Positions 9,662 through 36,618 of a stretch of DNA of 64,000 nt are shown piece by piece (position 1 is the stretch's first letter; each line of letters begins with the position of its first letter). Both the position numbers and the translations under genes were made by a program. The notes beneath the pieces are model-generated. The model had not been told where the DNA came from. It searched no databases and saw only the letters and a list, made by a program, of their open reading frames with translations. Source of the stretch: Stutzerimonas stutzeri (GTDB lineage Bacteria; Pseudomonadota; Gammaproteobacteria; Pseudomonadales; Pseudomonadaceae). The stretch is from the NCBI RefSeq assembly GCF_024448895.1, contig NZ_JAMOIC010000021.1, forward strand, positions 1 to 64,000, in the 5' to 3' direction.

Positions 9662-9687
9662 GGGCTTCGCTCCGGGGGTGAATGGGG

Positions 9688-10602
9688 TTATCGCCAAGTG
9701 GCGAGCAGCCGGCTTTGCTGACGTTGGGCCGCTTCCAAGGCTATCGGCTTCAACCGCAGGACTGTGCCCGGCATGCCTTGCGCCAGACGAGCAACTGCCA
9801 ATGGCGTCAGGGCGCCAAGCCGGGGATAACCGCCGATGGTTTGCCGGTCGTTGAGCAGGACGATGGGCTGCCCATCCGGCGGCACTTGAATCGCCCCTAA
9901 TGGCACGCCTTCGGAAATCATCGACTGTCGTGAACTGCGCAGCACTGGACCGAGCAGGCGGATGCCCATGCGATCGGCGCGCTGGTCCAGCGTCCATTCG
10001 CTATTGAATGCATCGAACAGGCTTTGCCCGCTGAAGTCGCCGATCTGTGCGCCAAGCACCACCTGCAGCGGTTCTGACGATGACAACGGAGTGATCAGAT
10101 CGGCATCCAGGTCACGTGGCCTGGGCGCCGCGCCGCTCCACTGCAGTCGATCACCCTGGGCCAGCGGCTTGCCATCGCCGTGCAGGCCGCCAAGCGCCTC
10201 GCGGCGTACCGTCGCGCAACTGTCCAGAGTCAAAGGTGCAGCAAAGCCGCCCGGGGCGGCGAGATAGGCGCGCACACCTCGGCGCGGCTGGGCAAAGGTC
10301 AGGCGTTGACCCTTGCGAATGTTGAAGCTGCGTCCCGGTTCAAGCGGTTGGCCATCCAGCGTGGCCGCAAGGTCCGCGCCGCACAGCGCGAGGCAGCTGT
10401 CAGCTTCGGCCAGCAGGGCGAAATTCCCCAAGGTGATTTCGATGGTTGCGGCGTGCAGCGGATTGCCCAACAACCAGTTGGCCCATGCCTGAGAAATCCA
10501 GTCCGCCGCGCCGCCCTGGGTCACGCCGAGATGACGGACACCGAACCGACCGCCGTCCTGCAGGCTGGCCATGGCGCCGCTGCGCTCGATCAACAGACTC
10601 AT
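9688..10602 (-). CDS. pxpC: 5-oxoprolinase subunit PxpC (carboxyltransferase-like)
   Basis: A 304-residue protein of the biotin-dependent carboxyltransferase / allophanate hydrolase subunit 2 family (KipA type). With PxpA and PxpB it forms the ATP-dependent enzyme that opens 5-oxo-L-proline to L-glutamate. Typical stretches are the N-terminal ASLQDGGRFGVRHLGV (12-27), GGYPRLG near the C-terminus, and a length usual for separate PxpC. A GAGGTTA ribosome binding site precedes the ATG, and the start overlaps the pxpB stop by 4 bp, so translation is coupled. Confidence 0.93.
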   Translation of the reverse strand: MSLLIERSGAMASLQDGGRFGVRHLGVTQGGAADWISQAWANWLLGNPLHAATIEITLGNFALLAEADSCLALCGADLAATLDGQPLEPGRSFNIRKGQRLTFAQPRRGVRAYLAAPGGFAAPLTLDSCATVRREALGGLHGDGKPLAQGDRLQWSGAAPRPRDLDADLITPLSSSEPLQVVLGAQIGDFSGQSLFDAFNSEWTLDQRADRMGIRLLGPVLRSSRQSMISEGVPLGAIQVPPDGQPIVLLNDRQTIGGYPRLGALTPLAVARLAQGMPGTVLRLKPIALEAAQRQQSRLLATWR

Positions 10603-11303
10603 GGTGTAACCTCGAAAGGACTGTCGTCTCCGCCAAGCCGAACGAACTCGGCGCGTTCGATGGGCTGGAAACGCACGCGGTCACCGGGTTGCCAGATGCT
10701 GTAGCCGTCCAGCTCCCGGTCGAACAGCCGCGTCGGGCTGCGGCCGATGAGATTCCAGCCCCCGGGTGATACCAGCGGATAGATAGCGGTCTGACGATCA
10801 GCGATACCCAAACTGCCAGCCGGAACCTGCTTGCGTGGCGTTTGCAGGCGCGGGCTGGCGAGGGATTCGTCGACCAGCCCCATGAAGGCGAAACCCGGCG
10901 CGAAGCCCAGCGCAAAAACCTGATAGGTCCGGGCGCTATGACGCTCGATCACGCCGGAAACGCCGAGCCCGCTGCGCTGCCCCAATGCTTCGAGTTCCGG
11001 ACCGACGCTTGGGTCGTACCAGACCGGGATGTCCAGCTCGCGCGCCTGAGCCCCCGCATCCGGCTGCAGGTCATGCAGCGCATTCGCTACCCGACGACGC
11101 GCCTGGTCGTCGTCCAGTTGTGCCAGGTCGTAATGAATTAAAAGGGTGGTGTAGGACGGCACTAGATCGATCAGGGCGGCGCCGAAACTTTCGCGCAGGC
11201 GCCGTGCAGCGGCCAGTAGCCAGGGCATGTGAGCTTCGTCGATTTCGTCGAACAGGCGCAGCATCAGGCAGTCGATGCCGACGACTTCGATACGGGCCTT
11301 CAT
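10599..11303 (-). CDS. pxpB: 5-oxoprolinase subunit PxpB
   Basis: A 234-residue protein of the allophanate hydrolase subunit 1 (KipI) family. Conserved stretches include [15 protein letters not shown] and the [21 protein letters not shown] segment, all diagnostic of PxpB/KipI. In B. subtilis KipI was first named for inhibiting the sporulation kinase KinA, but the conserved role is a 5-oxoprolinase subunit. Both ends overlap their neighbours by 4 bp (ATGA), which suggests equimolar synthesis of the three subunits. Confidence 0.93.
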
Positions 11304-12049
11304 GCCGCCAGCTTCTCGAGCGCCTGGCGGATGCGCTGCACGGCGGCGACCGAACCGGCGTTGTCACCGTGAACGCAAAGCGTATCGGCCCGCAGTACCA
11401 GAGGGCTGCCGTCGCTGGCGGTCAGCGCTTCGCCTTTGGCCAGGCATAGCGCCTGGGCTGCGACCGTTTCGGGATCGTGGTGTACCGCCCCGGGCAGGGC
11501 TCTGGAAACCAGCATGCCGGCCGCGTCATAGGCACGATCAGCGAACACTTCGAACCACAGCATCACACCCAGTTCGTCCGCCAGCGCTTGCGCAGCGCTG
11601 TTGTCGCGGGTCGACATCAGCATCAGGGGGAGCGACGGGGAATAGGCGATAACCGCGCGCATCACAGCTCGGAGCAGTTCGGGTTTGCGCATCATGTCGT
11701 TGTAAAGGGCCCCGTGCGGCTTGACGTAGCGGACCTGAGTGCCCTCGGCGCGACAGATGCCATCCAGCGCGCCAATCTGATAAAGCAGCATGTTCTCCAC
11801 TTCGTCCGGCGTGCACGCCATGGAGCGGCGGCCGAAGCCGACCAGATCTGGGTAGGCCGGATGGGCGCCGATCTTCACGTCATGCTGCGTTGCCAGCGCG
11901 ACGGTGCGTCGCATGATCTGTGGGTCAGAGGCGTGGAAACCACACGCCACGTTGGCGCAATCAATGAAGGGCATGACTTCGGCATCCAGGCCCATGGTCC
12001 AGGCCCCGAAGCTCTCGCCGATGTCGCAGTTGAGAAGTAGACGTTTCAT
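11300..12049 (-). CDS. pxpA: 5-oxoprolinase subunit PxpA (LamB/YcsF family)
   Basis: A 249-residue protein of the LamB/YcsF family with the diagnostic start [14 protein letters not shown] (4-17) and the segments [14 protein letters not shown] and [17 protein letters not shown], which carry conserved His and Asp residues of the barrel active site. The frame opens 18 codons earlier, but the ATG at 12049 has a GAGGAATGG ribosome binding site and gives the usual N-terminus. As first gene of the operon it is probably controlled by the divergent MarR-type regulator through the palindromes at 12110-12146. Confidence 0.94.
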
Positions 12050-12109
12050 ACCATTCCTCGCTGAACTGCTGGCCCGACCGGCGTGCCGGCAGGTGAGTGA
12101 CATTACGAT

Positions 12110-12146
12110 GATAAATTATCGATGATTTATCAATAAAAATTTATTG
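12110..12146. promoter_or_regulatory. Two adjacent palindromes, putative MarR-type operator
   Basis: GATAAAT (12110-12116) and ATTTATC (12125-12131) form one inverted repeat; CAATAAA (12131-12137) and TTTATTG (12140-12146) form a second that shares base 12131. The AT-rich block sits between the divergent pxpA and MarR-type genes, unlike the surrounding GC-rich sequence, and arms of this length suit a dimeric winged-helix regulator. It probably serves both promoters. Confidence 0.65.
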
Positions 12147-12234
12147 TCAGCCTTCGCAGCGGTCGCTCCAAGCTCATTGCTGTATGCTTGCCGACCCGAT
12201 TCATCGGGCGAAATCACGTTTCGCCCCTCAGGTC

Positions 12235-12774
12235 ATGGTCCACAAGATGGTTGACGCTAAATCCCCTCGCCCGTTGCGATCGTCCATCGTTGCGTCGGCG
12301 CATCTCGCCGAACAATCGCAGGAACTCTCCGAGCTCGAGTACGGCATCATCGTTGCCAGCGCCGCGCTGATGCGCTGGATGGAGCGCTGCATGAAAGCCT
12401 CTGGTGCCGTTGAAATGAACGCGCTGGACGTCATGGTGCTGCACAATCTGGCGAGCCGCGGCCGTGCCAAGCGACAAGCGGATATCTGCCTGCTGCTCAA
12501 TATCGAAGACACTCACACCGTGACTTACGCTTTGAAGAAACTCGGCAAGCTCGGTCTGGTGGAAGGCGAGAAACAGGGCAAGGAAATGTTCTATCGGCCC
12601 ACTGAAAAGGGCGGCGCGCTGTGCCGGGAGTACGCCGACATCCGACGTGAATGCCTGATCGCCTCCTTCGAAAACCTGAACATCGACCCGGACGATATTC
12701 ACCGTCTTGCAGGGCTGCTGCGCGCCATGTCCGGCCTCTACGACCAGGCCGCACGCGCCGCTACATCGCTCTGA
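12235..12774 (+). CDS. MarR-type winged-helix regulator of the pxp operon
   Basis: A protein of about 179 residues with a winged-helix DNA-binding domain: the helix-turn-helix is in the stretch RAKRQADICLLLNIEDTHTVTYALKKLGKLGLVEGEKQGKEMFYRPTE region, followed by the beta wing, which resembles MarR-family proteins. It is transcribed away from pxpA and is the obvious local regulator; a ligand such as 5-oxoproline is an inference. The start is uncertain: ATG codons at 12184, 12235 and 12247 are in frame, and none has a strong ribosome binding site; 12235 is chosen for the CAGG just upstream. Confidence 0.8.
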   Translation: MVHKMVDAKSPRPLRSSIVASAHLAEQSQELSELEYGIIVASAALMRWMERCMKASGAVEMNALDVMVLHNLASRGRAKRQADICLLLNIEDTHTVTYALKKLGKLGLVEGEKQGKEMFYRPTEKGGALCREYADIRRECLIASFENLNIDPDDIHRLAGLLRAMSGLYDQAARAATSL

Positions 12775-23703: not shown

Positions 23704-25014
23704 TCAGAACAGCAGGTTTGGCAGATACGTCGCGATCTCGGGGAAGACCATGATGATGCCCAGCCCGATGATGTTGACGATCACGAAGGGGATGACCGAC
23801 CAGTAGATGTCGCGCATGGTGATGCCTGGCGGCACGATGCCCTTCAGATAAAACAGGTTGAACCCGAACGGCGGCGTCATATAGCCGATCTCCATGTTGA
23901 TCACGAAGAGAATGCCGAACCAGATCGGGTCGAATCCCAGCGACGCCACGATGGGCAAGAACACCGGCAGCGTGATCAACATGATGCCCACCGGGTCGAG
24001 CAGCATGCCCATCAGGAACACTATGGCCATCATCGTGATGATGATGCCCCAGCGACCTCCGGGCAGATCCATCATCAACCCCTCGATCAGCGACTGCGCA
24101 CCCATGCCTTGATAGGCCGAGCTGAAGGCGTGGGCTGCGAACAGGATCCAGGCGATCATGCCCGTCAGTTTGAAGGTGCGGATAGCCGCTTCCTGAACGA
24201 TCTCCCAATTGAGCTTGCGATAAACGGCTGCCGAGATCAGCGCACCGAGCACGCCCATGGCTGCGGCTTCGGTAGGCGTCGTCATGCCGCCGATGATCGA
24301 GCCAAGCACCATCACCACGATGCCGATGGGCAGTATTACCGCACGGATCGCTCGTAGTTTGTCGCCCCAGCTGCCGCGTTCCTCTTTCGGCAGCGCGGGT
24401 GCCAGGTGTGGCTGGAAGAAGCAACGACCCAGTACATAGATAACCGTCAGCGCGACCAGCAAGATGCCCGGCAGAACGCCCGCAGCGAACATCTTGCCGA
24501 CAGAGACGCCACTGATCATCGCGTAGAGGATCATCATGATGCTTGGCGGAATCAGGATGCCCCAGCCGCCGCCCGTATTGATGCAGCCAAGCACCATGCG
24601 TTTGTCATAGCCACGCTCCAGCATTGCCGGCAGCGCGATGGTGCCCATGGCCACCACCGCAGCCCCGCTGATGCCGACCATCGCGCCGAAAATCGCGCAG
24701 ATGCCCAAGGTGCCGACCGCCAGACCGCCGCGCATGCCGCCACACCAGAGGTGCATCATTCGATAGAGGTCGCGGGCTACCCCGGTGCGCTCCAGCAGCA
24801 TGGCCATGAATACGAACAGCGGAATGGCCACCAGGGTGAAGCTTCCCATGGTGCCCCACATCTGCGAGGCCACCATGTAGAAAGCGTCGGCGCCCCAGGT
24901 GAAGTACAGAAACAGCACCGAGACGCCACCAAGCACGAAAGCCAGCGGCAGACCGAGTACCAGGAAAAAGATCAGCGATAGAAAGAACAGCAGCGTCGTG
25001 ATCTCGATGCTCAT
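23704..25014 (-). CDS. TRAP transporter large permease subunit (DctM family)
   Basis: A 436-residue membrane protein with about 12 helices and typical DctM sequence (ISGAAVVAMGTIALPAMLERGYDK and GILIPPSI motifs). It forms the ion-driven translocation channel of a tripartite ATP-independent periplasmic transporter for carboxylates or other small acids. The frame is open far upstream, but the ATG at 25014 overlaps the small-subunit stop by 4 bp and gives the normal N-terminus. It works with the two upstream genes. The substrate is not known; the neighbouring catabolic operon suggests an organic acid. Confidence 0.93.
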   Translation of the reverse strand: MSIEITTLLFFLSLIFFLVLGLPLAFVLGGVSVLFLYFTWGADAFYMVASQMWGTMGSFTLVAIPLFVFMAMLLERTGVARDLYRMMHLWCGGMRGGLAVGTLGICAIFGAMVGISGAAVVAMGTIALPAMLERGYDKRMVLGCINTGGGWGILIPPSIMMILYAMISGVSVGKMFAAGVLPGILLVALTVIYVLGRCFFQPHLAPALPKEERGSWGDKLRAIRAVILPIGIVVMVLGSIIGGMTTPTEAAAMGVLGALISAAVYRKLNWEIVQEAAIRTFKLTGMIAWILFAAHAFSSAYQGMGAQSLIEGLMMDLPGGRWGIIITMMAIVFLMGMLLDPVGIMLITLPVFLPIVASLGFDPIWFGILFVINMEIGYMTPPFGFNLFYLKGIVPPGITMRDIYWSVIPFVIVNIIGLGIIMVFPEIATYLPNLLF

Positions 25015-25556
25015 TTGTTCCCCTCCATGGAAGACTCGGGCAGATCCTTGCCGGGTTCCAGGTTCAGCGCCACGAGGATGTCTTGCAGCAGCTTTGCCAC
25101 GCCCTGCAGAAGCAACAGGGCCGTGCCTATGGGAATGGCTAACTTGATCGGCCAGATCGGCGGGTTCCAGGCTGAGTAGGAGGTTTCCATGCTCTGAACC
25201 GACTCCCACGCCATGGAGCTACCGAAGTAAAGCAACGCGGCCATGAACAGAAAGAACATCGAGGAGGTAAAGATATCGACCCAGGCCTGAGTGCGGCGCG
25301 AGAGCGAGCTGTAAAGCAGGTCGACGTTGACGTGACCGCGTTGGGCCATCACATAGCCGCCGGAGAGGACGATATAGACGCCGAACAGCAATTGCCCGAG
25401 TTCGTTGGTCCACGAAGTCGGCGCAGAGAGTAGGTAGCGCATGAACACTTCGGCTATCAGCAGCAGGAAGATGACGAAGATCAGATACGCCGCCCAACGA
25501 CCAATCAGGTTGTTCAGCCGCGTGATGCCGTTGATGTACGCATGAATGAGGCGCAT
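25011..25556 (-). CDS. TRAP transporter small permease subunit (DctQ family)
   Basis: A 181-residue protein with four membrane helices of the DctQ type, including the conserved second-helix stretch ending in E-x-F-x-RYL and the W-T-N-E-L-G-Q-L segment. It holds the large permease to the binding protein. An ATG 42 bp further upstream is also in frame; 25556 is preferred because a GGAG sits eight bases before it. Coupled to the large-subunit gene by ATGA overlap. Confidence 0.9.
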   Translation of the reverse strand: MRLIHAYINGITRLNNLIGRWAAYLIFVIFLLLIAEVFMRYLLSAPTSWTNELGQLLFGVYIVLSGGYVMAQRGHVNVDLLYSSLSRRTQAWVDIFTSSMFFLFMAALLYFGSSMAWESVQSMETSYSAWNPPIWPIKLAIPIGTALLLLQGVAKLLQDILVALNLEPGKDLPESSMEGNK

Positions 25557-25634
25557 CGCTAACTCCAGGGCAGCATGGCGAATCGGGAGCGAATTCACAC
25601 CGGCGGCGCTCGCGCTGGCAGGCCTAGAGACCTG

Positions 25635-25672: not shown

Positions 25673-26707
25673 TCAGAGGTAGCCGAGATCACCAAGCATG
25701 GTCTTGAGCATCTGCAGCGCCTTTGCGGCGTTGTCGCTGCGCTTGCCTTCGGCGTCCCAGGTCTTTTGCGCAATTTCCGTCAGACGCTTCTGCACATCCT
25801 CGGGCAAGGTATTGACCTCGACGCCGTGCTCCTTGATGGCGTTGGAAAGAGCTATCTGCTCCTGATACAGGTACTCGTTGGTGCGGTACCAGAACTGCTC
25901 ATCCAGGACCTGCTTGACTGTCTCCTGGTCCTTCTCGGACAGGCCATCGAGCGCTTTCTGGCTGACGATGATCACATCGGTACCGGCGATATTGAGTGCC
26001 GGCTTGACGTGGTACTTGGTCACTTCATAGAAACTCATGCTCGCCGCGCCTTGTGCGGCACCCCAATGCGCGGCATCGACCACGCCGGTGTCCAGCGCGG
26101 GGTAGAGCTCACTGCCGGGCAGGAACGTGGTCGATGCGCCGGCTTCGCTCAAAAACTTCTGCAGCGCGCCGGAAGAGCGAATCTTCAGCTTGGTGAAATC
26201 TTCCCAGCTGTTGATCGGCTTCTTCACCACCATCTCGGTGGGGTAGACCTTGTCAGTGGACCAGTAGACGTTGTGCTTGGCAGCTTCCTCGCGAAGCATG
26301 TCTTCGAAGCCCATGTGTTTGTGGAAGTACGCGGCTTCCCAGACGTTGCGGAATGCGAAGGGCAGACCGGAGGCGATACCGGCCAAGCTTATTTTGTCCT
26401 GGGCGTAACCGGGCGAAATCGTGCCCATCTGCAAGATGCCGCGGCTGACAGCGTTGAACGTTTCCGTATCTTTGAACAGAGCACCGGCCTCGAATAGCTG
26501 CAATTGCAAGCGGCCTTCGGTACGCCGTTCAAGCTCGGTCTTCAACCGAACAAGACTGTCTTTATAGGAACTGCTGGCGCTCGGCCAGTGGGACTGGACG
26601 CGCCACTTGGTGACGTCCTGCGCGACGGCCAGCGGTGATGTCACCGCCGCCACTGCGAAAGCGACCAGGCTGGCCGGTACGAGTAGCTTCTTGAGCATGG
26701 ATTTCAT
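25673..26707 (-). CDS. TRAP transporter periplasmic substrate-binding protein (DctP family)
   Basis: A 344-residue protein with a cleavable signal peptide (KKLLVPASLVAFAVAAVTSPLAVA, residues about 5-28, then QDV). The mature part is a DctP-type solute receptor: TKLKIRSSG carries the conserved arginine that usually binds the substrate carboxylate. The ATG at 26707 follows AAGAGGACG, and the longer frame upstream is rejected because it would bury the signal peptide. First gene of the TRAP operon, divergent from the thioesterase-ACAD operon with 442 bp between. Confidence 0.92.
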   Translation of the reverse strand: MKSMLKKLLVPASLVAFAVAAVTSPLAVAQDVTKWRVQSHWPSASSSYKDSLVRLKTELERRTEGRLQLQLFEAGALFKDTETFNAVSRGILQMGTISPGYAQDKISLAGIASGLPFAFRNVWEAAYFHKHMGFEDMLREEAAKHNVYWSTDKVYPTEMVVKKPINSWEDFTKLKIRSSGALQKFLSEAGASTTFLPGSELYPALDTGVVDAAHWGAAQGAASMSFYEVTKYHVKPALNIAGTDVIIVSQKALDGLSEKDQETVKQVLDEQFWYRTNEYLYQEQIALSNAIKEHGVEVNTLPEDVQKRLTEIAQKTWDAEGKRSDNAAKALQMLKTMLGDLGYL

Positions 26708-27149
26708 AACGCGTCCTCTTGTTGTAATTGTCTGGCTGCGGGCCATCTTTTGTATCACGTGTGTCGCATGCTTGTTTCGCACAGCAGAACTGACTTTTGC
26801 AAAGCTGATCGAAAGCTAACATAGCTCGGGGCTTTTTCAAGCGCTAGCAGATAGCTATCGCTGCTTCTCTTGTCTTTCAGGTTGTGTCGGTTCGCTGGCT
26901 GCATGATGCCTTCCGGGCTCGCGGTTGAGCTTAGACGGTTCTGTTTGTGGGTCGTCATAATTCTGCCTGATGGAACTGGATTTCGAATTGACGCATGGTT
27001 TCAAGCGTGCCAGCTTCAAAAGGGAGAGGACTCGCCACAAAAACAATCGAGAGACTCGCTATGCATTCAGGCATCCGCATCACTGACAGGACGGCACGGG
27101 TCCGCTTGCGCGACCTTCTCCGTCTTCTCCGGGCGGGGTAGGGCTGGCT
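26708..27149. other. Divergent promoter region of the catabolic island
   Basis: These 442 bp separate the divergent TRAP and catabolic operons, so both promoters should lie here. I see a 10-bp perfect palindrome GATAGCTATC at 26850-26859 near the middle, a possible regulator site, and no convincing -35/-10 pair, sigma-54 site or gene. Open frames across it have neither ribosome binding sites nor recognisable protein sequence. Confidence 0.5.
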
Positions 27150-27653
27150 ATGGATCAACCCACAAGCGCAAACCCTTCTGAGGAACTACCGATCAGCGGC
27201 GGCAAGGACCTTCCCGGTTTCCATCAGGTGCTTGGCTATCGTCAGGTGTCCTGGACGGAAAACGAGGCGGTGATCGAGCTCGACGTGCAGGCCTGTCACC
27301 TGAACATGGGCGGCGTGCTTCACGGCGGAGTGATTACATCGCTGCTTGATGTGGTGCTGGCCGAAGCCGGCACCTACTGCCCTTATTCCGGCCGGGTGCG
27401 CAAAGCGATCACGCTGGTGCTCAACACCACCTTCACCGGGCAGTGCTCCGGTGGAGTGATCCGCGCCATCGGCAGGCGCCGCGCCGGGGGAAGCCGCATC
27501 TTCAACAGCTCGGGTGAAGTCCGTGACGCCGACGACCGGCTGCTTGCCATCGGCGAAGCGACGTTTCGTCTGCGTTCCGGCAGCGAGCAAGCGCAAGGCG
27601 TGCCCCTGGATTTCCTTACCCATAACAACAACAAGGAACACGGCGATGTATGA
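27150..27653 (+). CDS. PaaI-type hotdog thioesterase
   Basis: A 167-residue single hotdog-domain protein of the PaaI/acyl-CoA thioesterase family. The active-site region [25 protein letters not shown] (about residues 50-74) has the HGG core and the acidic residue in helix 1. These enzymes hydrolyse acyl- or aryl-CoA and can rescue CoA from dead-end intermediates. It is the first gene of the plus-strand catabolic operon, and its 3' end overlaps the acyl-CoA dehydrogenase start by 8 bp. Confidence 0.87.
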
Positions 27654-28857
27654 ACTGACCGGTAAAGCGCTGGAGCTCCAGCAACAGCTCACGGCATTCA
27701 TGGACGAGCATATCTACCCCAACGAGCACGTTTTCCATGAGCAGGTCGCCACGGCCAGCAATCGCTGGGCGCCACCGCCGATTCTTGAAGAGCTGAAGCT
27801 CAAGGCCCGGGCGCAGGGCTTGTGGAACCTGTTTCTCCCGGAAAGTGAACATGGCGCCGGACTGTCCAATTTCGAGTACGCCCATCTCTGCGAAATCATG
27901 GGCCGCTCCCATGTTGCGTCCGAAGTCTTCAACTGCTCCGCACCGGATACCGGCAACATGGAAGTGCTCGCGCGCTACGGCACCCCGGAGCAGCAGGAAC
28001 AATGGCTCAAGCCGTTGCTTGAGGGCGAAATACGCTCCTGCTTTTCAATGACCGAACCCGAGGTGGCTTCGTCCGATGCCACCAATATCGCCTGCGAAAT
28101 CCGTCGCGACGGTGATGAATACGTCATCAACGGGCGCAAATGGTGGTCGTCCGGAGCGATGACCACGACCTGCAAGATCGCCATCGTCATGGGCAAGACC
28201 GACCCCGGCGCGGAACGGCATCGCCAGCAATCGATGATCCTCGTTCCGCTGGACACCCCAGGCGTCGAGATCATTCGGGCGCTCAACGTGTTCGGTTACG
28301 ACCACGCACCCCACGGGCACGCCGAAATCCACTACGACAACGTTCGCGTACCGGCCAGCAACATGCTGCTCGGTGAAGGCCGTGGTTTCGAAATCGCACA
28401 GGGGCGTCTTGGCCCGGGCCGTATCCACCATTGCATGCGCACCATCGGCGTGGCCGAGCGGGCCTTGCAGGCCATGTGTGAGCGCGTACATGAGCGGGTT
28501 GCTTTCGGCAAACCGCTGTCGGACTTCGACTCGATCCGCAAAGACATCGCCCGCTCGCGCATCGAGATCGAACAGACACGCCTGCTGACGCTGAAAGCCG
28601 CGCGGATGATGGACACCGTCGGCAACAAGGTGGCGCGGCAGGAGATCGCCATGATCAAGGCTGCGGCCCCGAGCATGGCGCTGCGCGTGCTGGACCGTGC
28701 GATCCAGGTCCATGGCGCCAAGGGCGTCTCTCAGGACAGCTTTCTCGCTGCTGCCTGGGCCCACCAACGGACGCTGCGACTGGCCGACGGCCCGGACGAA
28801 GTGCATCTGGACACCATCGCCAAGCTCGAATTGAAGAACTATTCCAGCAAGCGCTGA
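27646..28857 (+). CDS. ACAD10/11-type acyl-CoA dehydrogenase
   Basis: A 403-residue flavoprotein of the acyl-CoA dehydrogenase family. The segments [31 protein letters not shown] and [12 protein letters not shown] match the mammalian ACAD10/ACAD11 subgroup and LvaC of P. putida rather than classical beta-oxidation dehydrogenases. The C-terminal segment that in classical enzymes reads YEGT with the catalytic Glu is here LADGPDEVH, as in the ACAD11 group, so simple alpha-beta dehydrogenation is doubtful. The known members act with a kinase on 4-hydroxyacyl-CoA to move it toward 3-hydroxyacyl-CoA. The partner kinase is encoded two genes downstream. Start 27646 lies inside the thioesterase 3' end; the longer frame upstream has no family sequence. 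Confidence 0.9.
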
Positions 28858-28892
28858 GCGCCTGATAACACCAACAAGAAGGACGAAGCCAG

Positions 28893-29660
28893 ATGACCAA
28901 TCCGCTGTTCGATCTGACCGGAAAGGTGGCACTGATTACCGGCTCCACCCGCGGCATCGGCCGCTCCATTGCCGAGGAAATGGCCAAATGCGGCGCGCGG
29001 GTCGTGATTTCCAGCCGCAAAGCTGACGCCTGCGACGCCGTTGCCGCTGAGCTGAATGCCGCTGGCTACGAGGCCATCGCAGTGCCTTGCCATGTGGGTC
29101 GCAAGGAAGACCTGCAGCGGCTGGTAGACACGACCCTGCAAACCTGGGGACGCATCGACGTGCTGGTCTGTAACGCGGCCACCAATCCGGTATACGGCCC
29201 CACCGGCGAGCTGACCGACGACGCCTGGGACAAGATCATGGACACCAACGTCAAGGGCACCTTCTGGCTCTCGAACATGGTGTTGCCGCAGATGGCCGAG
29301 CGTGGCGAGGGGGTGGTGATCATGCTTTCCAGCATTGCCGGATTGCGCGGCAACACTGTGATCGGCACCTATGGTGTATCCAAGGCGGCCGAGGCGGCGC
29401 TGGCCCGCAATCTCGCGGCCGAGTGGGGCCCCAAGGGCATCCGCGTCAATGCTATTGCACCGGGGCTCGTACGTACCGATTTCGCCAAAGCGTTGCTGGA
29501 TGATCCGGAGCGGGTCCGCCGCGCCGCAGAAAAAACGCCGTTGCGCCGGATTGGTGAACCGGTGGATATCGCCGGCCTTGCTGTATTTCTGGCAGCGCCC
29601 GCCAGCGCCTATATCACCGGCCAGGTGATCGTTGCAGACGGCGGTGAAACTGCATGCTGA
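28893..29660 (+). CDS. SDR family oxidoreductase
   Basis: A 255-residue classical short-chain dehydrogenase: cofactor motif TGSTRGIG (17-24), NAAT in the centre (residues about 93-96), catalytic Ser in SSIAG and YGVSK for the Tyr-Lys pair, and a C-terminal VADGGETAC. The cofactor could be NAD or NADP. In the levulinate pathway an SDR (LvaD) reduces 4-oxoacyl-CoA to 4-hydroxyacyl-CoA, which would fit the place between dehydrogenase and kinase genes; other hydroxy/oxo pairs are possible. AAGGACG ribosome binding site. Confidence 0.88.
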   Translation: MTNPLFDLTGKVALITGSTRGIGRSIAEEMAKCGARVVISSRKADACDAVAAELNAAGYEAIAVPCHVGRKEDLQRLVDTTLQTWGRIDVLVCNAATNPVYGPTGELTDDAWDKIMDTNVKGTFWLSNMVLPQMAERGEGVVIMLSSIAGLRGNTVIGTYGVSKAAEAALARNLAAEWGPKGIRVNAIAPGLVRTDFAKALLDDPERVRRAAEKTPLRRIGEPVDIAGLAVFLAAPASAYITGQVIVADGGETAC

Positions 29661-29670
29661 GGGCGTGGCA

Positions 29671-30741
29671 ATGAACGAACCCGAGCTGATCGACGTACTG
29701 CCGGCGCATCGGTTAGATGAACCGGCGCTGGCGCGATACCTGCGCAACCACCTGCCAGGCATTGGCGACGAACTGAATGTTCGCCAGTTTCAGGGCGGGC
29801 AGTCCAACCCCACTTATTTGTTGGAAAGCGCCGGGCGGCGTTACGTGTTGCGCAAGAAACCGCCGGGCAAGGTGCTGCCGTCGGCGCACATGGTCGAGCG
29901 CGAATACAAGGTGATCCGCGCGCTTTCGGAACACAGCCGCGTGCCGGTGCCCTCGGTGCATCTCTTATGCGAAGACGAAACCGTAATCGGCACCGCTTTC
30001 TATGTCATGGATCACGTCGAAGGGCGGATCTTCAGCCATCCGGCGCTGGACGAGTTGGCTGTTGCCGAGCGCGAGCCGATTCACATGGCAGCCATCGATA
30101 CGCTGGCCGCATTGCATCAGGTCGACGTAGAGGCCGTGGGGCTGGGTGATTTCGGCAAGGCCCAAGGGTATTTCGCCCGTCAGGTAAAGCGCTGGTCCGG
30201 TCAGTATCAGGCGTCCCGCACCGACGACATGCCGTCGATGGAAAGTCTCATGCAATGGCTGCCGGAGCAGATCCCGCAGCGTGACGAATGCGCCATCGCC
30301 CATGGAGATTACCGACTAGGCAATCTGATCTTCGATCCAGCCGAGCCAAGGGTAGCGGCGATTCTCGACTGGGAGCTTTCCACCATCGGTCATCCACTGG
30401 CGGACCTTGCTTACTTCTGCCTGCCGTATCACTTGCCTGCTGGCGTGGAGGGCTTGCGCGGCTTGGTCGGGCTCGATCTGCAGGCGTTGGGTATTCCGTC
30501 CGAGCAGCAGGTGCTGGCGCGTTACTGCCAGCAGAGCGGACGCGGTTCCATTGCTGACTGGCATGTCTTCGTCGCGTTTTCGCTGTTCCGGCTCGCGGCG
30601 ATTCTTCAGGGTGTGTACGCGCGGGCCTTGCAGGGCAATGCCAGTAATGCCGATGCGTTGCAGGTCGGGCAGCGCGCCGGTCTGCTTGCCGACGCCGGTT
30701 GGCGGATCGCCCAGAGCGGCGGCAGCGGGGTGACCCCATGA
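29671..30741 (+). CDS. APH-type phosphotransferase (ACAD11 kinase-domain-like, LvaA-like)
   Basis: A 356-residue kinase of the aminoglycoside phosphotransferase/choline kinase fold. The catalytic loop HGDYRLGN (211-218) has Asp213 and Asn218, and the metal-binding Asp233 lies in ILDWELS. The N-terminal nucleotide loop is GGQSNPTY (42-49). It is closest in pattern to the kinase domain of mammalian ACAD10/11 and to LvaA, which phosphorylate the 4-hydroxyl of 4-hydroxyacyl-CoA, not to antibiotic kinases. The stop overlaps the surE start by 4 bp. No LvaB-like small subunit gene is present. Confidence 0.87.
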   Translation: MNEPELIDVLPAHRLDEPALARYLRNHLPGIGDELNVRQFQGGQSNPTYLLESAGRRYVLRKKPPGKVLPSAHMVEREYKVIRALSEHSRVPVPSVHLLCEDETVIGTAFYVMDHVEGRIFSHPALDELAVAEREPIHMAAIDTLAALHQVDVEAVGLGDFGKAQGYFARQVKRWSGQYQASRTDDMPSMESLMQWLPEQIPQRDECAIAHGDYRLGNLIFDPAEPRVAAILDWELSTIGHPLADLAYFCLPYHLPAGVEGLRGLVGLDLQALGIPSEQQVLARYCQQSGRGSIADWHVFVAFSLFRLAAILQGVYARALQGNASNADALQVGQRAGLLADAGWRIAQSGGSGVTP

Positions 30742-31541
30742 ATGCGCCGTTGCTGCGTCGTGTCCTGCTGACCAACGATGACGGCATTGCCGCGCCGGGT
30801 CTGGCATTGCTCGAACGAATCGCCGCGCAACTGGCAGAGGAAGTCTGGGTAGTCGCGCCCGAGCACGACCAGAGCGGCACAGGACAGGGCATCTCGGTGC
30901 ATGCGCCGTTGCGCGTGTATCACCATGGCGAGCGGCGCTTCGCCGTTTCCGGCACACCGTCCGACTGCGTGATGTTCGCAATGGCCGAATGGCTGCAGGA
31001 CTCGCCGCCTGACTTGGTGCTGTCCGGCGTCAACAGCGGAGCGAATATCGGCGACTCGGTGCCTTACTCGGGCACCCTCGGTGCGGTTCTCAGCGCCGAC
31101 CTGCTCGGTGTGCCGGCCATCGGTCTTAGCCAGGCCTTTCTGGACCGCACACTGATCGACTGGTCCTGCGTAGAAACCTACGCCGCCGTCACGATCCGCG
31201 CGCTCTGGGCGCGTCGTGAAGAAAACGGTTGTTGCTGGAATGTGAATTTCCCGGCTTGCCCGGCTGGCGCCGTCAGCCATCTGCGGATGACCCGGCAATC
31301 CCGCGGTTCGATCACCCGACCGCGTTTGCAGGCCGGCCACGATGGTCGCGGTCTGCCGTACTGGTGGCTTGGGTTCGAACACTCATCCGCCCATATCACC
31401 GACCCCGAACTCGACGTTACGGCGTTGCGCGCGAAACGCATCGCCATCACGCCGCTGCGCGATACCCGGTGCTGGCTCGAGTGGGGCGAAGAGCGGGCAC
31501 TGGCCGATCTGGCCGTCAATTGTGATTCAGGAGCTCAGTAA
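30738..31541 (+). CDS. surE: SurE family phosphatase within a catabolic operon
   Basis: A 267-residue phosphatase with the SurE metal-binding start VLLTNDDGIAAPGL (9-22) and the conserved segments VVAPEHDQSGTGQ, SGTPSDCV and SGVNSGANIG. SurE hydrolyses nucleoside 5'/3' monophosphates and other phosphomonoesters. The usual surE lies with pcm and rpoS; this copy instead overlaps the kinase gene upstream (ATGA) and the ligase gene downstream (1 bp), so it is built into the pathway. It may remove a dead-end phosphoester or act on a phosphorylated intermediate; this is inference. Confidence 0.87.
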   Translation: MNAPLLRRVLLTNDDGIAAPGLALLERIAAQLAEEVWVVAPEHDQSGTGQGISVHAPLRVYHHGERRFAVSGTPSDCVMFAMAEWLQDSPPDLVLSGVNSGANIGDSVPYSGTLGAVLSADLLGVPAIGLSQAFLDRTLIDWSCVETYAAVTIRALWARREENGCCWNVNFPACPAGAVSHLRMTRQSRGSITRPRLQAGHDGRGLPYWWLGFEHSSAHITDPELDVTALRAKRIAITPLRDTRCWLEWGEERALADLAVNCDSGAQ

Positions 31542-33223
31542 TGTTCACTCGTCATCATGGGGTCTGGCCTGAAGATCTGCCCAAGCACCTGACCGTTCCG
31601 GAAACCAGCCTGTTCAACAATCTCGAAGTCTCCGCGCGCCGCTATCCGGACAAGACGGCGATCATCTTCTACGACACCCTGATCACCTACACCGAGCTGT
31701 TGCGCGAGGTTGAAGCGCTGGCCGGTTACCTGCAACACCTGGGCGTGGCCAAGGGTGATCGGGTGTTGCTGTACATGCAGAACTCGCCGCAGTTCACCAT
31801 CGCCTACTACGCGATCCTGCGCGCGGATGCCGTGGTGATCCCGGTCAACCCGATGAACCACAGCGCCGAGCTGGAGCACTACCTGCACGACACTGGCGCG
31901 GCCCTGTGCCTCTGTGGGCAGGAGCTCACCGGCTTTATCTCGCCCCTGGTCGGCACAGCGCAGTTGCGCCATGTCGTCGTTGCGGCTTACTCGGAATACC
32001 TTCGCCAGCCCACCGATCTTGCGCTGCCAGCCGAGGTGCGGGCACCAGCCGTAGCGCCGGCTTTCACTGGCGGCATCGCCTGGAGCGAAGCCCTGCGCGC
32101 CGGTCACAAGGCGGGATCGCACACGGCTGGTCCGGACGACCTGTGCGTGTTCCCTTACAGCTCAGGCACCACGGGCGCGCCGAAAGGCTGCATGCATACC
32201 CACCGCTCCGCCATGGCAACCATCATCCATCGCGTGGTCTGGACCAACAGCACCAGCGAATCGGTGATCCTCGCGACGCTGCCGTACTTTCACGTCACCG
32301 GCATGCAAGGCGCCATGAGCGGGCCGATCTACAACGGTGGCACCGCGGTCATCATGACCCGCTGGGACCGCACGGTCGCGGCCCAGCTGATCGAGCGACA
32401 CAAGGTGACCGGCTGGGTGAACATCGCCACCATGGCCATCGATTTCCTCTCCGATCCCGATGTCGAGCGCTACGACCTGTCCAGCCTGGTCAGTGTGGGT
32501 GGCGGTGGTGCCGCGATGCCCAAGGCCGTGGAGGAGAAGCTGCATCGGCTCACTGGTCTTCGTTATATCGAAGGCTATGGGCTGTCGGAAACCATTGCGG
32601 CCACCCACATCAACCCAGTGCCGCGACCCAAAGCGCAATGCCTCGGCATCCCGGTATTCGATGTTGACAGCCGCGTCATCGACCTGAGTGACCAGCGGGA
32701 GCTCGGCCCCAATGAAGTAGGCGAGATCGTCAGCCGCGGCCCGCAGCTGTTCCAGGGTTACTGGAACCGTCCGGAAGAGACCGAGCGCGCCTTCATCGAA
32801 CTGGACGGCCACAGGTTTTTCCGCACCGGCGATATGGGCTACTACGATGAAGAGGGCTATTTCTTCCTCGTCGACCGGGTCAAGCGGATGATCAACGCCT
32901 CCGGTTTCAAGGTCTGGCCATCGGAAGTCGAAAGCCTGATGTACCGCCACCCGGCGATTCAGGAGTGCTGCGTCATTTCCTGCCCCGATCCCAAGCGCGG
33001 CGAGACGGTTAAGGCCTGTGTGGTATTGCGCAACGGCCAGGCTGGGCTGGTCAGCGAGCAGGACATCATCGACTGGTGCAAGGCGGAAATGGCTGCCTAC
33101 AAGGCGCCGGTATACGTGGAGTTCGTCGCGTCGTTGCCACGTTCGTCAACCGGCAAGTTGATGTGGCGCACCTTGCAGGAAGAGGAGAACCGCAAACACG
33201 CCAGTCGCGCTCAAGAGGCCTGA
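31541..33223 (+). CDS. Acyl-CoA ligase (AMP-binding family)
   Basis: A 560-residue ANL-superfamily enzyme that activates a carboxylic acid with ATP and CoA. It shows the P-loop SSGTTGAPKGCMHTH (about 206-220), the YGLSE motif, the TGD core (FFRTGDMGYYDEEG) and the C-terminal catalytic Lys in SSTGKLMWR. It is similar in length and pattern to medium/long-chain fatty acid CoA ligases. Its start overlaps the surE stop by one base, so it belongs to the operon and probably carries out the first step, loading the substrate on CoA. Confidence 0.9.
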   Translation: MFTRHHGVWPEDLPKHLTVPETSLFNNLEVSARRYPDKTAIIFYDTLITYTELLREVEALAGYLQHLGVAKGDRVLLYMQNSPQFTIAYYAILRADAVVIPVNPMNHSAELEHYLHDTGAALCLCGQELTGFISPLVGTAQLRHVVVAAYSEYLRQPTDLALPAEVRAPAVAPAFTGGIAWSEALRAGHKAGSHTAGPDDLCVFPYSSGTTGAPKGCMHTHRSAMATIIHRVVWTNSTSESVILATLPYFHVTGMQGAMSGPIYNGGTAVIMTRWDRTVAAQLIERHKVTGWVNIATMAIDFLSDPDVERYDLSSLVSVGGGGAAMPKAVEEKLHRLTGLRYIEGYGLSETIAATHINPVPRPKAQCLGIPVFDVDSRVIDLSDQRELGPNEVGEIVSRGPQLFQGYWNRPEETERAFIELDGHRFFRTGDMGYYDEEGYFFLVDRVKRMINASGFKVWPSEVESLMYRHPAIQECCVISCPDPKRGETVKACVVLRNGQAGLVSEQDIIDWCKAEMAAYKAPVYVEFVASLPRSSTGKLMWRTLQEEENRKHASRAQEA

Positions 33224-33284
33224 GGACAGCGAATGAACGAGTGCCATGCGCCACGGGCACCTACGTAACCACTGGAGCAAAGCT

Positions 33285-34031
33285 ATGCAAGATTCAACTT
33301 CAACGAATCGGGAAGCGGAATGGCAGGTGCGCAAGGACCTCGCTGCAGCCTATCGCCTGGTGGCGCATTTCGGCTGGGACGATCTGGTGTTCACTCACCT
33401 GTCGGCACGCGTGCCGGGCCCAGAGCATCATTTCCTGATCAACCCCTACGGCCTGCTGTTTCAGGAGATCACGGCCTCGTCCCTGGTGAAAGTGGATCGC
33501 GAGGGTCAGATCGTCCAGAGCGGCAGCCTGCATCGTGTCAATCCGGCGGGCTTTACCATCCACAGCGCCATTCACATGGGGCGTGAAGATGCCGGCGCGG
33601 TGATGCATCTGCACGCCGCGGACGGTACGGCGGTTTCCGCCCACCGCGACGGCCTGCTGCCACTGAGTCAGACGGCGATGCTCTGTCTCGATCACATCAG
33701 TTACCACGAATACGAAGGCGTCGCGCTGGATCTGACCGAGCGCGAGCGGTTGATCCGCGACCTGGGCAGCAAGCAAATGATGATCTTGCGCAATCATGGT
33801 GTGCTCACCGCTGGTAGCACCGTCGCCGAAGCCTTCACCTACCTGTATTTCCTGATGAAGGCCTGTGAGATCCAGGTGCGCGCCCAGTCGTGCGGGCCGA
33901 CGCACATGCCCTCGGCTGCAGCCATCGAAACGACCCGTCAGCAATCGGCTGAACTCGGCATGGCCGCCAAGCTCACCTGGCCAGCCCTGTTGCGTCTGCT
34001 GGAGGCCAACGGCCACGTCTATGCGATTTAG
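33285..34031 (+). CDS. Class II aldolase/adducin family protein
   Basis: A 248-residue protein with the zinc site of class II aldolases: the segment VMHLHAADGTAVSAH carries two His ligands and RNHGVLTAG the third. The N-terminal GWDDLVFTHLSAR and FLINPYGLLFQEI stretches are typical of the adducin-like subgroup, in which aldolase activity is often unproven. The frame opens 13 codons earlier, but the ATG at 33285 has a GGAG at suitable distance. It lies 61 bp after the ligase gene and is probably co-transcribed. Confidence 0.85.
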   Translation: MQDSTSTNREAEWQVRKDLAAAYRLVAHFGWDDLVFTHLSARVPGPEHHFLINPYGLLFQEITASSLVKVDREGQIVQSGSLHRVNPAGFTIHSAIHMGREDAGAVMHLHAADGTAVSAHRDGLLPLSQTAMLCLDHISYHEYEGVALDLTERERLIRDLGSKQMMILRNHGVLTAGSTVAEAFTYLYFLMKACEIQVRAQSCGPTHMPSAAAIETTRQQSAELGMAAKLTWPALLRLLEANGHVYAI

Positions 34032-34103
34032 CGGTAGGCTGAGGCGATCACTTGTCCGCCCCCGAGGCGGACGGTCATTCATCCGAGCAAAAGCAGAACG
34101 CCC

Positions 34104-35033
34104 ATGAAAATCCTCTTTGGTGCCGCCGATCCCAAGCCCGAGCGCTGGACCAGTCTGATCCAGCAGCATCTGCCTGAGGCTGACATTCAGGTCTGGCATT
34201 CGGACATGCCGAGCTGCGGGGCCGACTACGCCATCGTCTGGCATCCGCCGGCCGCGCTGTTCGACAAGGAGCCTCATCTCAAAGCCGTGTTCAACCTGGG
34301 CGCGGGCGTCGATGCGTTGGTCCAGGTGCCCAACCTGCCGCGCGACATTCCGGTGGTGCGTCTTGAGGACGCTGGTATGTCCGTGCAGATGGCTGAGTAC
34401 GTCGCTTATCACGCAATCGGCATCAGCCGGGACATGGATTTTTACCGTGAGCAACAAGCCGAGAAGCAATGGAAACTGCGACGCCCCATCGAACGCAGCG
34501 AGTGGCCCATCGGCGTGCTCGGCCTCGGCCAGATCGGCCAGCGTGTCGCCCGCACACTGGCCGGGCTGGATTACCCGGTGAGCGGCTGGGCTCGCTCCGC
34601 GCATGCTCTGGACGGCGTACGCAGCTTTGCCGGCGCTGCCGAACTCGACGGCTTTCTTGGCGAGACACGCGTGCTGGTCAACATGCTGCCCTTGACCGAG
34701 AGCACGCGAGACCTCATCGACTATTCATTGCTCGCGAAGCTCAGGCCCGACGCCGTGGTGATCAATGTCGGTCGCGGCGAACATCTGGTAGACGAGGATC
34801 TTTGCCGAGCTATTGAAGAGGGGCGAGTCGCGCGCGCCGTGCTCGATGTGTTTCGTGAGGAGCCGCTGCCTACGTCGCACCCGTTCTGGCAGATGCCGCA
34901 GGTCACCATCACGCCCCACGTCTCGGCGCGCACCTTGCGCGAGGCCACCATTGCTCAGATCACCGACAAGATTCTCGCCCTGGAACAAGGGCAGTCCATC
35001 AGCGGCATCGTCGACGTCCAGCGCGGCTATTGA
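34104..35033 (+). CDS. D-2-hydroxyacid dehydrogenase, GhrA-like
   Basis: A 309-residue dehydrogenase of the D-isomer 2-hydroxyacid family. The NAD(P)-binding motif GLGQIGQRVA is near residues 139-148; the catalytic Arg, Glu and His appear in NVGRGEH, DVFREEPLP and TPHVSA. The pattern is that of GhrA, the glyoxylate/hydroxypyruvate reductase A. It could remove glyoxylate, pyruvate-like or other 2-oxo acids made by the pathway. Last gene of the plus-strand series; it converges on a second ligase gene. Confidence 0.87.
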   Translation: MKILFGAADPKPERWTSLIQQHLPEADIQVWHSDMPSCGADYAIVWHPPAALFDKEPHLKAVFNLGAGVDALVQVPNLPRDIPVVRLEDAGMSVQMAEYVAYHAIGISRDMDFYREQQAEKQWKLRRPIERSEWPIGVLGLGQIGQRVARTLAGLDYPVSGWARSAHALDGVRSFAGAAELDGFLGETRVLVNMLPLTESTRDLIDYSLLAKLRPDAVVINVGRGEHLVDEDLCRAIEEGRVARAVLDVFREEPLPTSHPFWQMPQVTITPHVSARTLREATIAQITDKILALEQGQSISGIVDVQRGY

Positions 35034-35064: not shown

Positions 35065-36618
35065 TCAGTCCGCCGCGCCGTCCTCAGAAAGATACCGATC
35101 CCGTAACTCGCGCTTGAGCACCTTGCCAATGGCGCTTCGTGGCAGCTCATCGATTAATTCAAGGCGGGCCAAGCGCTGGGTTTTGCCGACACGGTCGTTG
35201 AACCAGCTCAGCAGCGCTTCGGGTGCGTGGGTTGCGTCAGACGCGAGGACGACAAAAGCTACCGGCGTTTCTCCCCAGCGCGTCGAAGCCACGCCGACCA
35301 CGGCCACGTCCCCGATGGCCGGATGCTCCCGCAGGATGGCTTCGAGATCGCTCGGGTACAGGTTGAAGCCGCCGGAGATGATCATGTCCTTCTTGCGATC
35401 GAGCAGCGTGAGGAAGCCCTCGGCATCGAAGCGGCCGACGTCGCCGGTGCGGATGAAGCGCTTGCCGCTCGGGTCGAACCACTCGGCTTCGGCGGTCTTC
35501 TCGGGTTTGTTCAGGTAGCCGGTCATCATCGCCGGGGAATGCCCGACGATCTCGCCGATAGCGCCTTCAGGCAGCTCGTTACCGGCATCGTCGATCACAC
35601 GGATGTCATGTCCCTCGGCTGGCTTGCCGACGGTGTGCAATTTGTCCGGATGCTCATGGGCTGCAAGGATGCAGGTGCCGCCGCCTTCGGTCATGCCATA
35701 GGTGTCGATCAACCCGCCCGGCCAGCGCGCCAGAACATCCGCCTTCAGCGCTGCACTGAACGGCGCGCTGGTGCACATCTTGTAGCGGAAGTGGCTGAGG
35801 TCGTATTGATCGAAGTCGTCGTGGGCCATGATCCGCTGGTACTGCACCGGCACCAGCATGGTGTGCGTGACCGCGTGCCGCTGCGCCAGGCTCAGATATT
35901 CCCCGGCGTCGAACTTGGGCATCAGCACTACGGTGCCGCCGAGGGCCAGCGTCGGCAGAAAGGCCACCAGCGTGGTATTCGAGTACAACGGCGTGGAGAT
36001 CAGCGTCGTGGCGTTGTCGCCGTACCCGTAGGCAGCGCTGCGCCGCAGGTGCGCCCAGCGCATGGCATGGGATTGCACGATGCCCTTGGGCTCGCCTGTG
36101 GTGCCCGAGGAATAGATGATGTTGAACGCCCATTCCGGCTGGATCTCGACCGGCTCCGGTGCGGAATCGCTGAGCCAGTCCGCCAGTGTCGACGACTGAT
36201 CCAGGCGCAGGAAAGGGCAGGGTAGTCGGCTGGAGACCCGCTTCAGATGCTCCGCTGCGTTCGCGTCGAGGAAGACCAGCCGAGGCGAGGCGTCGGCCAG
36301 CATCGTCAGCAGACTTTCGGGACTTGCCGAAGGGGCCAGTGGCGCGACGGCGACACCGGCCCGCAAAGCGCCGAGAAACACCGCGGCGTACTCAATGGAG
36401 TTGTACGCACAGATAGCAAGCACGTCGTCCGGCTTCGCGCCGTCACGTTGCAGCGCCGCCGCAACGCGGCTCATGTAACGGTCGAGTTGGGCAAAACTCA
36501 GCGTGCGGTCGTCCTGGATCAGCGCGGGATGATCTGGCTGATGCTTTGCCCAGTATGCGATCAGATCGGGAACTGCAGCGAAGGGTTGATCCAGATCGAC
36601 GGCGTCGTAGGTTTCCAT
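35065..36618 (-). CDS. Second acyl-CoA synthetase (AMP-binding family)
   Basis: A 517-residue ANL-superfamily enzyme with P-loop YSSGTTGEPKGIVQSH, the YGMTEGGG motif, RTGDVGRFDAEGF and the catalytic Lys near the C-terminus in SAIGKVLKRELR. It activates an acid as acyl-adenylate and then acyl-CoA; the chain type cannot be told. The ATG at 36618 is chosen over a 49-codon longer frame that shows no family sequence. It is transcribed toward the catabolic operon from its own promoter, so the island has two CoA-loading enzymes. Confidence 0.88.
   Translation of the reverse strand: METYDAVDLDQPFAAVPDLIAYWAKHQPDHPALIQDDRTLSFAQLDRYMSRVAAALQRDGAKPDDVLAICAYNSIEYAAVFLGALRAGVAVAPLAPSASPESLLTMLADASPRLVFLDANAAEHLKRVSSRLPCPFLRLDQSSTLADWLSDSAPEPVEIQPEWAFNIIYSSGTTGEPKGIVQSHAMRWAHLRRSAAYGYGDNATTLISTPLYSNTTLVAFLPTLALGGTVVLMPKFDAGEYLSLAQRHAVTHTMLVPVQYQRIMAHDDFDQYDLSHFRYKMCTSAPFSAALKADVLARWPGGLIDTYGMTEGGGTCILAAHEHPDKLHTVGKPAEGHDIRVIDDAGNELPEGAIGEIVGHSPAMMTGYLNKPEKTAEAEWFDPSGKRFIRTGDVGRFDAEGFLTLLDRKKDMIISGGFNLYPSDLEAILREHPAIGDVAVVGVASTRWGETPVAFVVLASDATHAPEALLSWFNDRVGKTQRLARLELIDELPRSAIGKVLKRELRDRYLSEDGAAD

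Follow-up and report, generated by a model that had tools for sequence, protein, structure and literature searches.

A SurE-family phosphatase beside an ACAD11-type kinase in a putative 4-hydroxyacyl-CoA operon of Stutzerimonas stutzeri

Why does an operon that encodes a kinase and an acyl-CoA dehydrogenase of the mammalian ACAD10/11 type also carry, overlapping the kinase gene, a gene for a SurE-family phosphatase? According to the excerpts of PMC11342911 and PMC12440821 on which we draw throughout, ACAD10 and ACAD11 phosphorylate 4-hydroxyacyl-CoA and their dehydrogenase part removes the phosphate to yield enoyl-CoA, therefore a phosphatase is not needed for the forward path. The operon in question lies at positions 27150-35033 of the window, which is the whole stretch of 64,000 nucleotides (nt) analysed here (Stutzerimonas stutzeri contig NZ_JAMOIC010000021.1, from a genome, G000, of 5.39 Mb in 78 contigs). 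On balance, we lean towards reading it as a bacterial, split ACAD10/11 pathway with its own phosphatase, SurE, coupled to the kinase. The need for such a phosphatase is likely repair, because a stalled or wrong phospho-acyl-CoA traps CoA.

The operon and its ACAD11-type pair

Eight genes, all on the forward strand, make up the locus, and six of them, from TE to LIG, are tightly packed, with junctions that are overlaps or gaps of no more than 35 nt. Pfam and NCBIfam scans support the family names of the operon genes:

27150..27653, +, TE, hotdog-fold (PaaI-like) thioesterase (PF03061, TIGR00369)
27646..28857, +, ACAD, dehydrogenase of the ACAD10/11-LvaC type, presumed to convert 4-phosphoacyl-CoA to enoyl-CoA (PDB matches, aligned residues)
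28893..29660, +, SDR, short-chain dehydrogenase (PF13561/PF00106)
29671..30741, +, KIN, APH-fold kinase of the ACAD11 group (PF01636)
30738..31541, +, SurE-family phosphatase (PF01975, E 9e-54)
31541..33223, +, LIG, acyl-CoA ligase of the PRK08314 subfamily (NF006181, 878 bits, cut-off 705)
33285..34031, +, class II aldolase/adducin family protein (PRK07044), accessory (NF005451, 357 bits, cut-off 207)
34104..35033, +, 2-hydroxyacid dehydrogenase, GhrA-like, accessory (PF02826; NF012013, 274 bits, below the cut-off of 403)

TE and ACAD overlap by 8 nt, ACAD and SDR are separated by 35 nt and SDR and KIN by 10 nt, KIN and SurE overlap by 4 nt (ATGA) and SurE and LIG by 1 nt; gaps of 61 nt (LIG to aldolase) and 72 nt (aldolase to dehydrogenase) follow. 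The gene set, overlaps and coordinates given by the first-pass annotation agree with the open reading frame (ORF) positions, only the aldolase start being set here, at 33285, with an in-frame ATG at 33246 also open. Its claim that the operon has no LvaB-like subunit likewise holds, as there is no room for such an extra gene between TE and LIG, a statement that concerns the operon only, no LvaB search having been made of the remaining genome. In a scan for consensus promoters and terminators, matches were no more frequent than in shuffled sequences. Because it recurs in other genera, the arrangement is not due to chance.

Judged by homology, KIN and ACAD are members of the ACAD11 group with conserved catalytic residues. 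Among PDB entries, KIN matched 3dxp best (E 1.7e-108), followed by mouse ACAD11 (E 1e-86 to 1e-87) and 9o56 (E 1e-61), other kinases being much weaker, and ACAD matched the ACAD11 entries 8v3u, 8v3v and 2wbi (E 1e-146 to 1e-148), then 4hr3 (1e-139) and other dehydrogenases of its family at 4e-40 or weaker. Residues R254, H262, R265 and D381 of ACAD (positions counted by hand) align with R626, H634, R637 and D753 of mouse ACAD11, which the excerpt of PMC12440821 ties to catalysis and the phosphorylated substrate. The HGDYRLGN loop of KIN carries D213 and N218 (again counted by hand), the former aligned with the Asp replaced by Ala in 8v3u, which is the mouse catalytic D220 of the HGD loop. Furthermore, the ACAD motifs are kept in 57/57 and the kinase motifs in 65/65 of the homologues found in the 69 SurE-operon loci described below. 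In a kinase tree built with FastTree, from which LvaA is absent, mouse ACAD11 stands among the neighbouring kinases, on a long branch that makes its exact place unsure.

The split ACAD11-like kinase/dehydrogenase pair recognised in the first-pass annotation is thus borne out by PDB matches and catalytic residues, and in a comparison made with ACAD11, not with LvaA/LvaC, neither protein fell outside the ACAD11/Lva group. Phosphorylation of a 4-hydroxyacyl-CoA, also put forward there, is upheld as the most reasonable conclusion from these alignments, and the core chemistry is likely the passage of 4-hydroxyacyl-CoA into beta-oxidation via a phosphate ester.

The resemblance to mammalian ACAD11 and ACAD10 (PMC12440821, PMC11342911, both in excerpt) extends to kinase and dehydrogenase of the same groups with the same catalytic residues and, for ACAD10, to a second, phosphatase-related module (HAD), whereas here kinase and dehydrogenase are separate and the extra protein, SurE, is of another family with its motifs intact. 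The lvaABCDE operon of Pseudomonas putida KT2440, as described in the excerpts of PMC6692424 and the ACAD papers, also brings together a kinase, an acyl-CoA dehydrogenase, a short-chain dehydrogenase and an acyl-CoA ligase, the latter two matching LvaD/LvaE at gene-family level only. In contrast, the core of the window operon is without an LvaB gene, adds SurE and TE, and adjoins a TRAP transporter instead of an acetate-type permease. The P. putida lva operon was not recognised in the regions fetched from relatives.

SurE and the kinase across genera

A search of named genomes with SurE as query gave 80 loci, the best 80 of 233 relatives, and the 69 with SurE above 300 bits were taken as the SurE-operon type. 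These comprise 14 Stutzerimonas-type loci (including L017 and L022 of Pseudomonas sp.), 41 from Marinobacter, 11 from Alcanivorax/Alloalcanivorax and one each from Salinicola, Vreelandella and an unclassified gammaproteobacterium; several loci end at contig ends. SDR-KIN-SurE, mostly with ACAD and LIG, is found in Stutzerimonas, Marinobacter, Alcanivorax/Alloalcanivorax, Salinicola and Vreelandella. The kinase-SurE-ligase order, for which the first-pass annotation had suggested a genome search, is conserved accordingly, with KIN in 65/69 and LIG in 67/69 loci (L051 has KIN, which an ORF-boundary artefact hid in one tally), along with SDR in 65, ACAD in 57 and TE in 49. As SurE was the query, these counts show the company that SurE keeps, not how often kinases have SurE. 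ACAD was not beside KIN in L023, L024, L061, L070 and L077, though the contig continues. A second SDR is common to Marinobacter, Vreelandella, the genus g464 (see below), L025 and others (37/69 loci; 65-73% identity between genera) and was not found in the window's genome, where the best match is 42%.

KIN and SurE meet in a 4-nt overlap in 48 of the 64 loci measured, with SurE assumed to begin at the first ATG/GTG in the 20 codons that precede NDDG; L053, whose SurE ORF has no NDDG, was excluded from this measurement. Across 398 Pseudomonadota genomes, KIN at E <1e-150 was present, among the matches listed, in G000, G571, G348, G413, G449 and G468, and SurE at E <1e-90 in exactly those six, adjacent to KIN in each. 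The next-best scores were 415 bits after 528 for KIN (among the matches listed) and 241 after 308 for SurE, and both cut-offs were chosen after these gaps were seen. Moreover, genus g464 was reached by searching 59 genomes of the window's family with ACAD rather than with SurE; ACAD-SDR-KIN-SurE-SDR2 is found there in 5/5 genomes of the draw, and no ligase match in any of the five fetched regions. The main operon clade has the g464 SurE as its sister (support 85, IQ-TREE). That KIN-SurE is retained in g464, where no ligase match lies nearby, suggests that SurE goes with the kinase and counts against SurE serving the ligase.

KIN is missing from four operon loci, the truncated L029 and L025, L063 and L078. 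The ACAD-KIN pair of L063 (Marinobacter piscensis) is found about 53 kb from SurE on that contig (L095 4290-8929), while SurE has stayed and SurE-LIG is kept; a histidine phosphatase on the kinase strand is 2.9 kb from the displaced kinase. In L025 (Stutzerimonas azotifigens DSM 17556, 9085-12406) SurE sits between the second SDR and a homologue (872 bits) of LIG2, the window's second ligase, and the rest of the operon, on another contig (L094), has no SurE between KIN and LIG. L078 (9998-10750, Alcanivorax sp. S71-1-4) is an orphan operon-type SurE in a genome with no kinase of its clade, where the sole kinase over threshold adjoins a histidine phosphatase.

The SurE protein itself is distinct. 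In a FastTree tree and in a quick IQ-TREE tree that includes g464, lone homologues and housekeeping SurE both fall outside a single clade of operon SurE (support 100 and 99); the partial rows L238, L241 and L242 were used in the former and in column counts and left out of the latter. The window SurE carries the family profile and the family motifs NDDG, SG, SGxNxGxN and SGT, and throughout the operon loci two motifs are kept in 69/69 and NDDG in 68/69. At S49->G, N/H50->Q, D107->S and A117->V, among others, the operon clade is unlike both other SurE groups, the change at 107 being common to g464, and from these positions we infer an altered substrate choice. Housekeeping SurE, a 5'/3'-nucleotidase, is of the same family with the same motifs, whereas operon SurE forms a separate clade, stands in a metabolic operon and has changed residues beside conserved loops. 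The window protein is 89-92% identical to those of named S. stutzeri strains, in which gene order is the same. That it might be a displaced housekeeping gene was ruled out, as a second SurE at G000:C4, 34% identical, falls in the housekeeping clade. Further SurE homologues (L083-L093, L203-L216), 45-52% identical to the window's, occur in Burkholderiales, Acetobacteraceae, the window's own family and others; for lone homologues, no metabolic neighbour set common across the groups inspected was found.

Histidine phosphatases beside related kinases

We fetched 104 regions around ACAD11-type kinases and exceptions, 101 of which hold a kinase. Ninety-four are survey regions chosen by hand among the kinase matches listed, in most cases a single region for each genus, and include extra histidine-phosphatase-type kinases added deliberately; the other ten are chosen exceptions and second copies, seven with a kinase and three (L098-L100) without. 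A histidine phosphatase is present in 31/101 kinase loci, 29 scoring above 100 bits with our own profile and two weak ones, L135 and L145, confirmed by Pfam (PF00300, 105.9 and 105.7 bits), although the kinase tree still labels these two as without phosphatase; within the 94 survey regions, 24 exceed 100 bits. All 31 lie on the kinase strand within 3.6 kb, while most flanks reach 7-8 kb, and none was found on the opposite strand or farther out in the 101 loci. His_Phos_1 has a background of about 1.1 matches per Mb (219 over about 198 Mb in 40 chosen genomes, made up of 83 in 15 genomes and 136 in 25, split ones counted apart); at that rate the roughly 1.6 Mb fetched should hold about two. As the profile was grown from kinase-adjacent seeds, other histidine phosphatase types may be missed; PF00300 matches over the 40 genomes, inspected by eye, gave no further one within about 8 kb of the kinases among the matches listed.

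On the kinase tree the histidine-phosphatase label changes 8 times, at least 6 of these being forced by well-supported branches, and by this measure histidine phosphatases were recruited several times beside ACAD11-type kinases. SurE-linked kinases form a single clade of 21 rows (support 96), including two with SurE elsewhere. The residue preceding the last Asn of the HGD loop is Gly in 19/19 SurE-labelled kinases, Asp in 28/29 histidine-phosphatase-linked kinases and in ACAD11, and among 71 kinases labelled without phosphatase Asp in 55 and Gly in 9. The 80 SurE loci yielded no histidine phosphatase. The window's genome has a second ACAD11-type kinase, 35% identical, at G000:C6:153242-156425 (L096), in the order histidine phosphatase, small gene, kinase, SDR; in L192, from a related genome, the small gene of the matching operon encodes an SCP2-family protein. 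A simple-motif search for HAD proteins near the kinases gave two opposite-strand matches, more than 4 kb off, in one locus, and with such a motif HAD partners are poorly tested.

These operons are better read as having a phosphatase slot beside the ACAD11-type kinase, apparently filled by SurE here and by a histidine phosphatase in many related operons. A precedent is the levulinate cluster of Pseudomonas citronellolis LA18T, which, in the excerpt of PMC6692424, has kinase, phosphatase, ACAD and SDR with no LvaB homologue found in the region; unlike the window operon, it has a histidine phosphatase in place of SurE, and its ligase belongs to an adjacent cluster encoded on the complementary strand. 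Its authors suggest in the same excerpt that the histidine phosphatase may take the phosphate off 4PV-CoA, and by analogy we would extend this suggestion to SurE and to a repeated pattern. In the open-licence literature we found no published account of SurE in an ACAD11-type kinase operon.

What the phosphatase may do

In the pathway we propose, a carboxylic acid, perhaps imported by the divergent TRAP transporter, would be activated by LIG, SDR may reduce a 4-oxoacyl-CoA (possibly an LvaD-like role), KIN would phosphorylate the 4-hydroxyl of the acyl-CoA and ACAD would strip the phosphate to give enoyl-CoA for beta-oxidation. SurE would hydrolyse phosphate esters that ACAD cannot use or that accumulate, be it stalled 4-phosphoacyl-CoA, wrongly phosphorylated isomers or free phospho-acid released by TE, after which the hydroxy acid could be reused and CoA would not be trapped. 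Its part would be that of a safety valve, for which the ACAD10 HAD domain offers a parallel. In the excerpt of PMC11342911, free 4-phospho-acid forms in mammalian cells and mutation of the HAD domain raises the phospho-intermediate; the domain was first expected to do such repair and was found instead to restrain the kinase. The core chemistry is well supported by homology, and the role proposed for SurE is a good inference. A wider claim is more tentative and in our view somewhat short of an even chance: that unrelated folds have more than once supplied the pathway with a proofreading phosphatase, namely a histidine phosphatase several times, SurE here and perhaps the ACAD10 HAD domain, each preventing CoA trapping, and that the window SurE is a dedicated phospho-acyl phosphatase, not a nucleotidase.

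The neighbours of the operon bear on the substrate:

25673..26746, -, DctP, TRAP solute-binding protein, divergent from the operon (PF03480)
25011..25598, -, DctQ, small TRAP membrane subunit (position, homologues)
23704..25017, -, DctM, large TRAP membrane subunit (position, homologues)
35065..36615, -, LIG2, second acyl-CoA ligase, convergent with the operon (PF00501)

The names DctQ and DctM are presumed from position. DctP is found upstream on the opposite strand in 48/69 operon loci, adjoining the operon in Stutzerimonas and 4-9 kb upstream of SurE in Marinobacter, and with DctQ and DctM it is a candidate substrate importer. An apparent branched-chain-amino-acid-type ABC transporter set (named by eye) comes right after LIG or the operon in L030, L045, L061, L063 and L072, followed in some loci by MaoC, acyl-CoA dehydrogenase or FadB-like genes, also identified by eye except the MaoC of L030. 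The TRAP genes and apparent ABC transporters thus point to an imported carboxylic acid, for which 4-hydroxy, 4-oxo or lactone-derived acids are natural candidates.

Among other explanations, SurE might be an ordinary 5'-nucleotidase that removes AMP from the adjoining acyl-CoA ligase and pulls activation forward. The annotation of SurE-family models as nucleotidases fits this, as do the presence of LIG within 1 kb after SurE in 67/69 loci, the contact of the relocated L025 SurE with a LIG2 homologue and the SurE-LIG pair kept without KIN in L063. It is nevertheless unlikely, given that KIN-SurE is present in all five g464 operons, whose fetched regions gave no ligase match, and that the window's genome already holds another SurE. 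Furthermore, a ligase match occurs in just 4/23 same-strand runs of kinase and histidine phosphatase (L157, L162, L166, L168); in that set, then, it is the kinase that the phosphatase accompanies.

Equally improbable, in our estimate, is that SurE catalyses an obligate step of a new route, the aldolase and 2-hydroxyacid dehydrogenase processing the dephosphorylated product. Both accessory genes follow LIG in 11/14 Stutzerimonas-type loci, as this explanation would have it, and the aldolase is present in 29/41 Marinobacter regions and, alone, in Salinicola. However, the aldolase of Marinobacter is encoded on the opposite strand and the dehydrogenase occurs there in 4/41 loci, the fetched loci of Alcanivorax type, Vreelandella and g464 showed neither gene, and in the excerpts of PMC11342911 and PMC12440821 the dehydrogenase of the ACAD10/11 pathway itself removes the phosphate. 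As core genes the two were ruled out by their patchy occurrence (41/69 and 16/69). The first-pass annotation had made them part of the core route and SurE an additional catabolic step of it; neither proposal was sustained, and SurE is better read as the kinase's phosphatase partner.

A marginally less probable alternative is that SurE regulates the kinase by binding and not by catalysis, as proposed for the ACAD10 HAD domain. The tight KIN-SurE coupling would suit it, and in the excerpt of PMC11342911 that domain lowers kinase activity with itself negligible phosphatase activity, hence the HAD analogy may be regulatory; yet the retention of the SurE motifs in the operon loci suggests that catalysis is used. 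That the operon mates act on unrelated substrates, with SurE a passenger kept by translational coupling, would accommodate the orphan of L078 and the relocations in L025 and L063 but is very improbable in view of its persistence over several genera and the confinement of the closest kinase (among the matches listed) and SurE to the same six of 398 genomes.

We still favour SurE as the phosphatase partner of the kinase, and besides the result on the HAD domain several observations weigh against it. Because SurE was the query, finding KIN beside SurE in the 69 loci carries no independent weight, and LIG accompanies SurE in that set just as constantly as KIN does. SurE is apart from KIN in L025 and L063 and alone in L078, and the changes at 49-50 that mark the main clade are absent from g464 SurE. 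With no TE seen in any of the 11 Alcanivorax-type and five g464 loci, a recycling loop of TE and SurE is at best optional. Finally, 69/101 kinase loci have neither SurE nor histidine phosphatase nearby; a partner is therefore frequent, not universal, and is either not always needed or encoded elsewhere.

Papers of 2024-2025 gave ACAD10 and ACAD11 their function, and what the ACAD10 HAD domain does is still open. A bacterial system with separate kinase, acyl-CoA dehydrogenase and dedicated phosphatase would make the control of phospho-acyl-CoA testable in a simple host. If the proposed role is true, SurE proteins would gain a role outside nucleotide metabolism, and this would aid the annotation of many operons in marine bacteria, including Marinobacter and Alcanivorax, which are known oil degraders.

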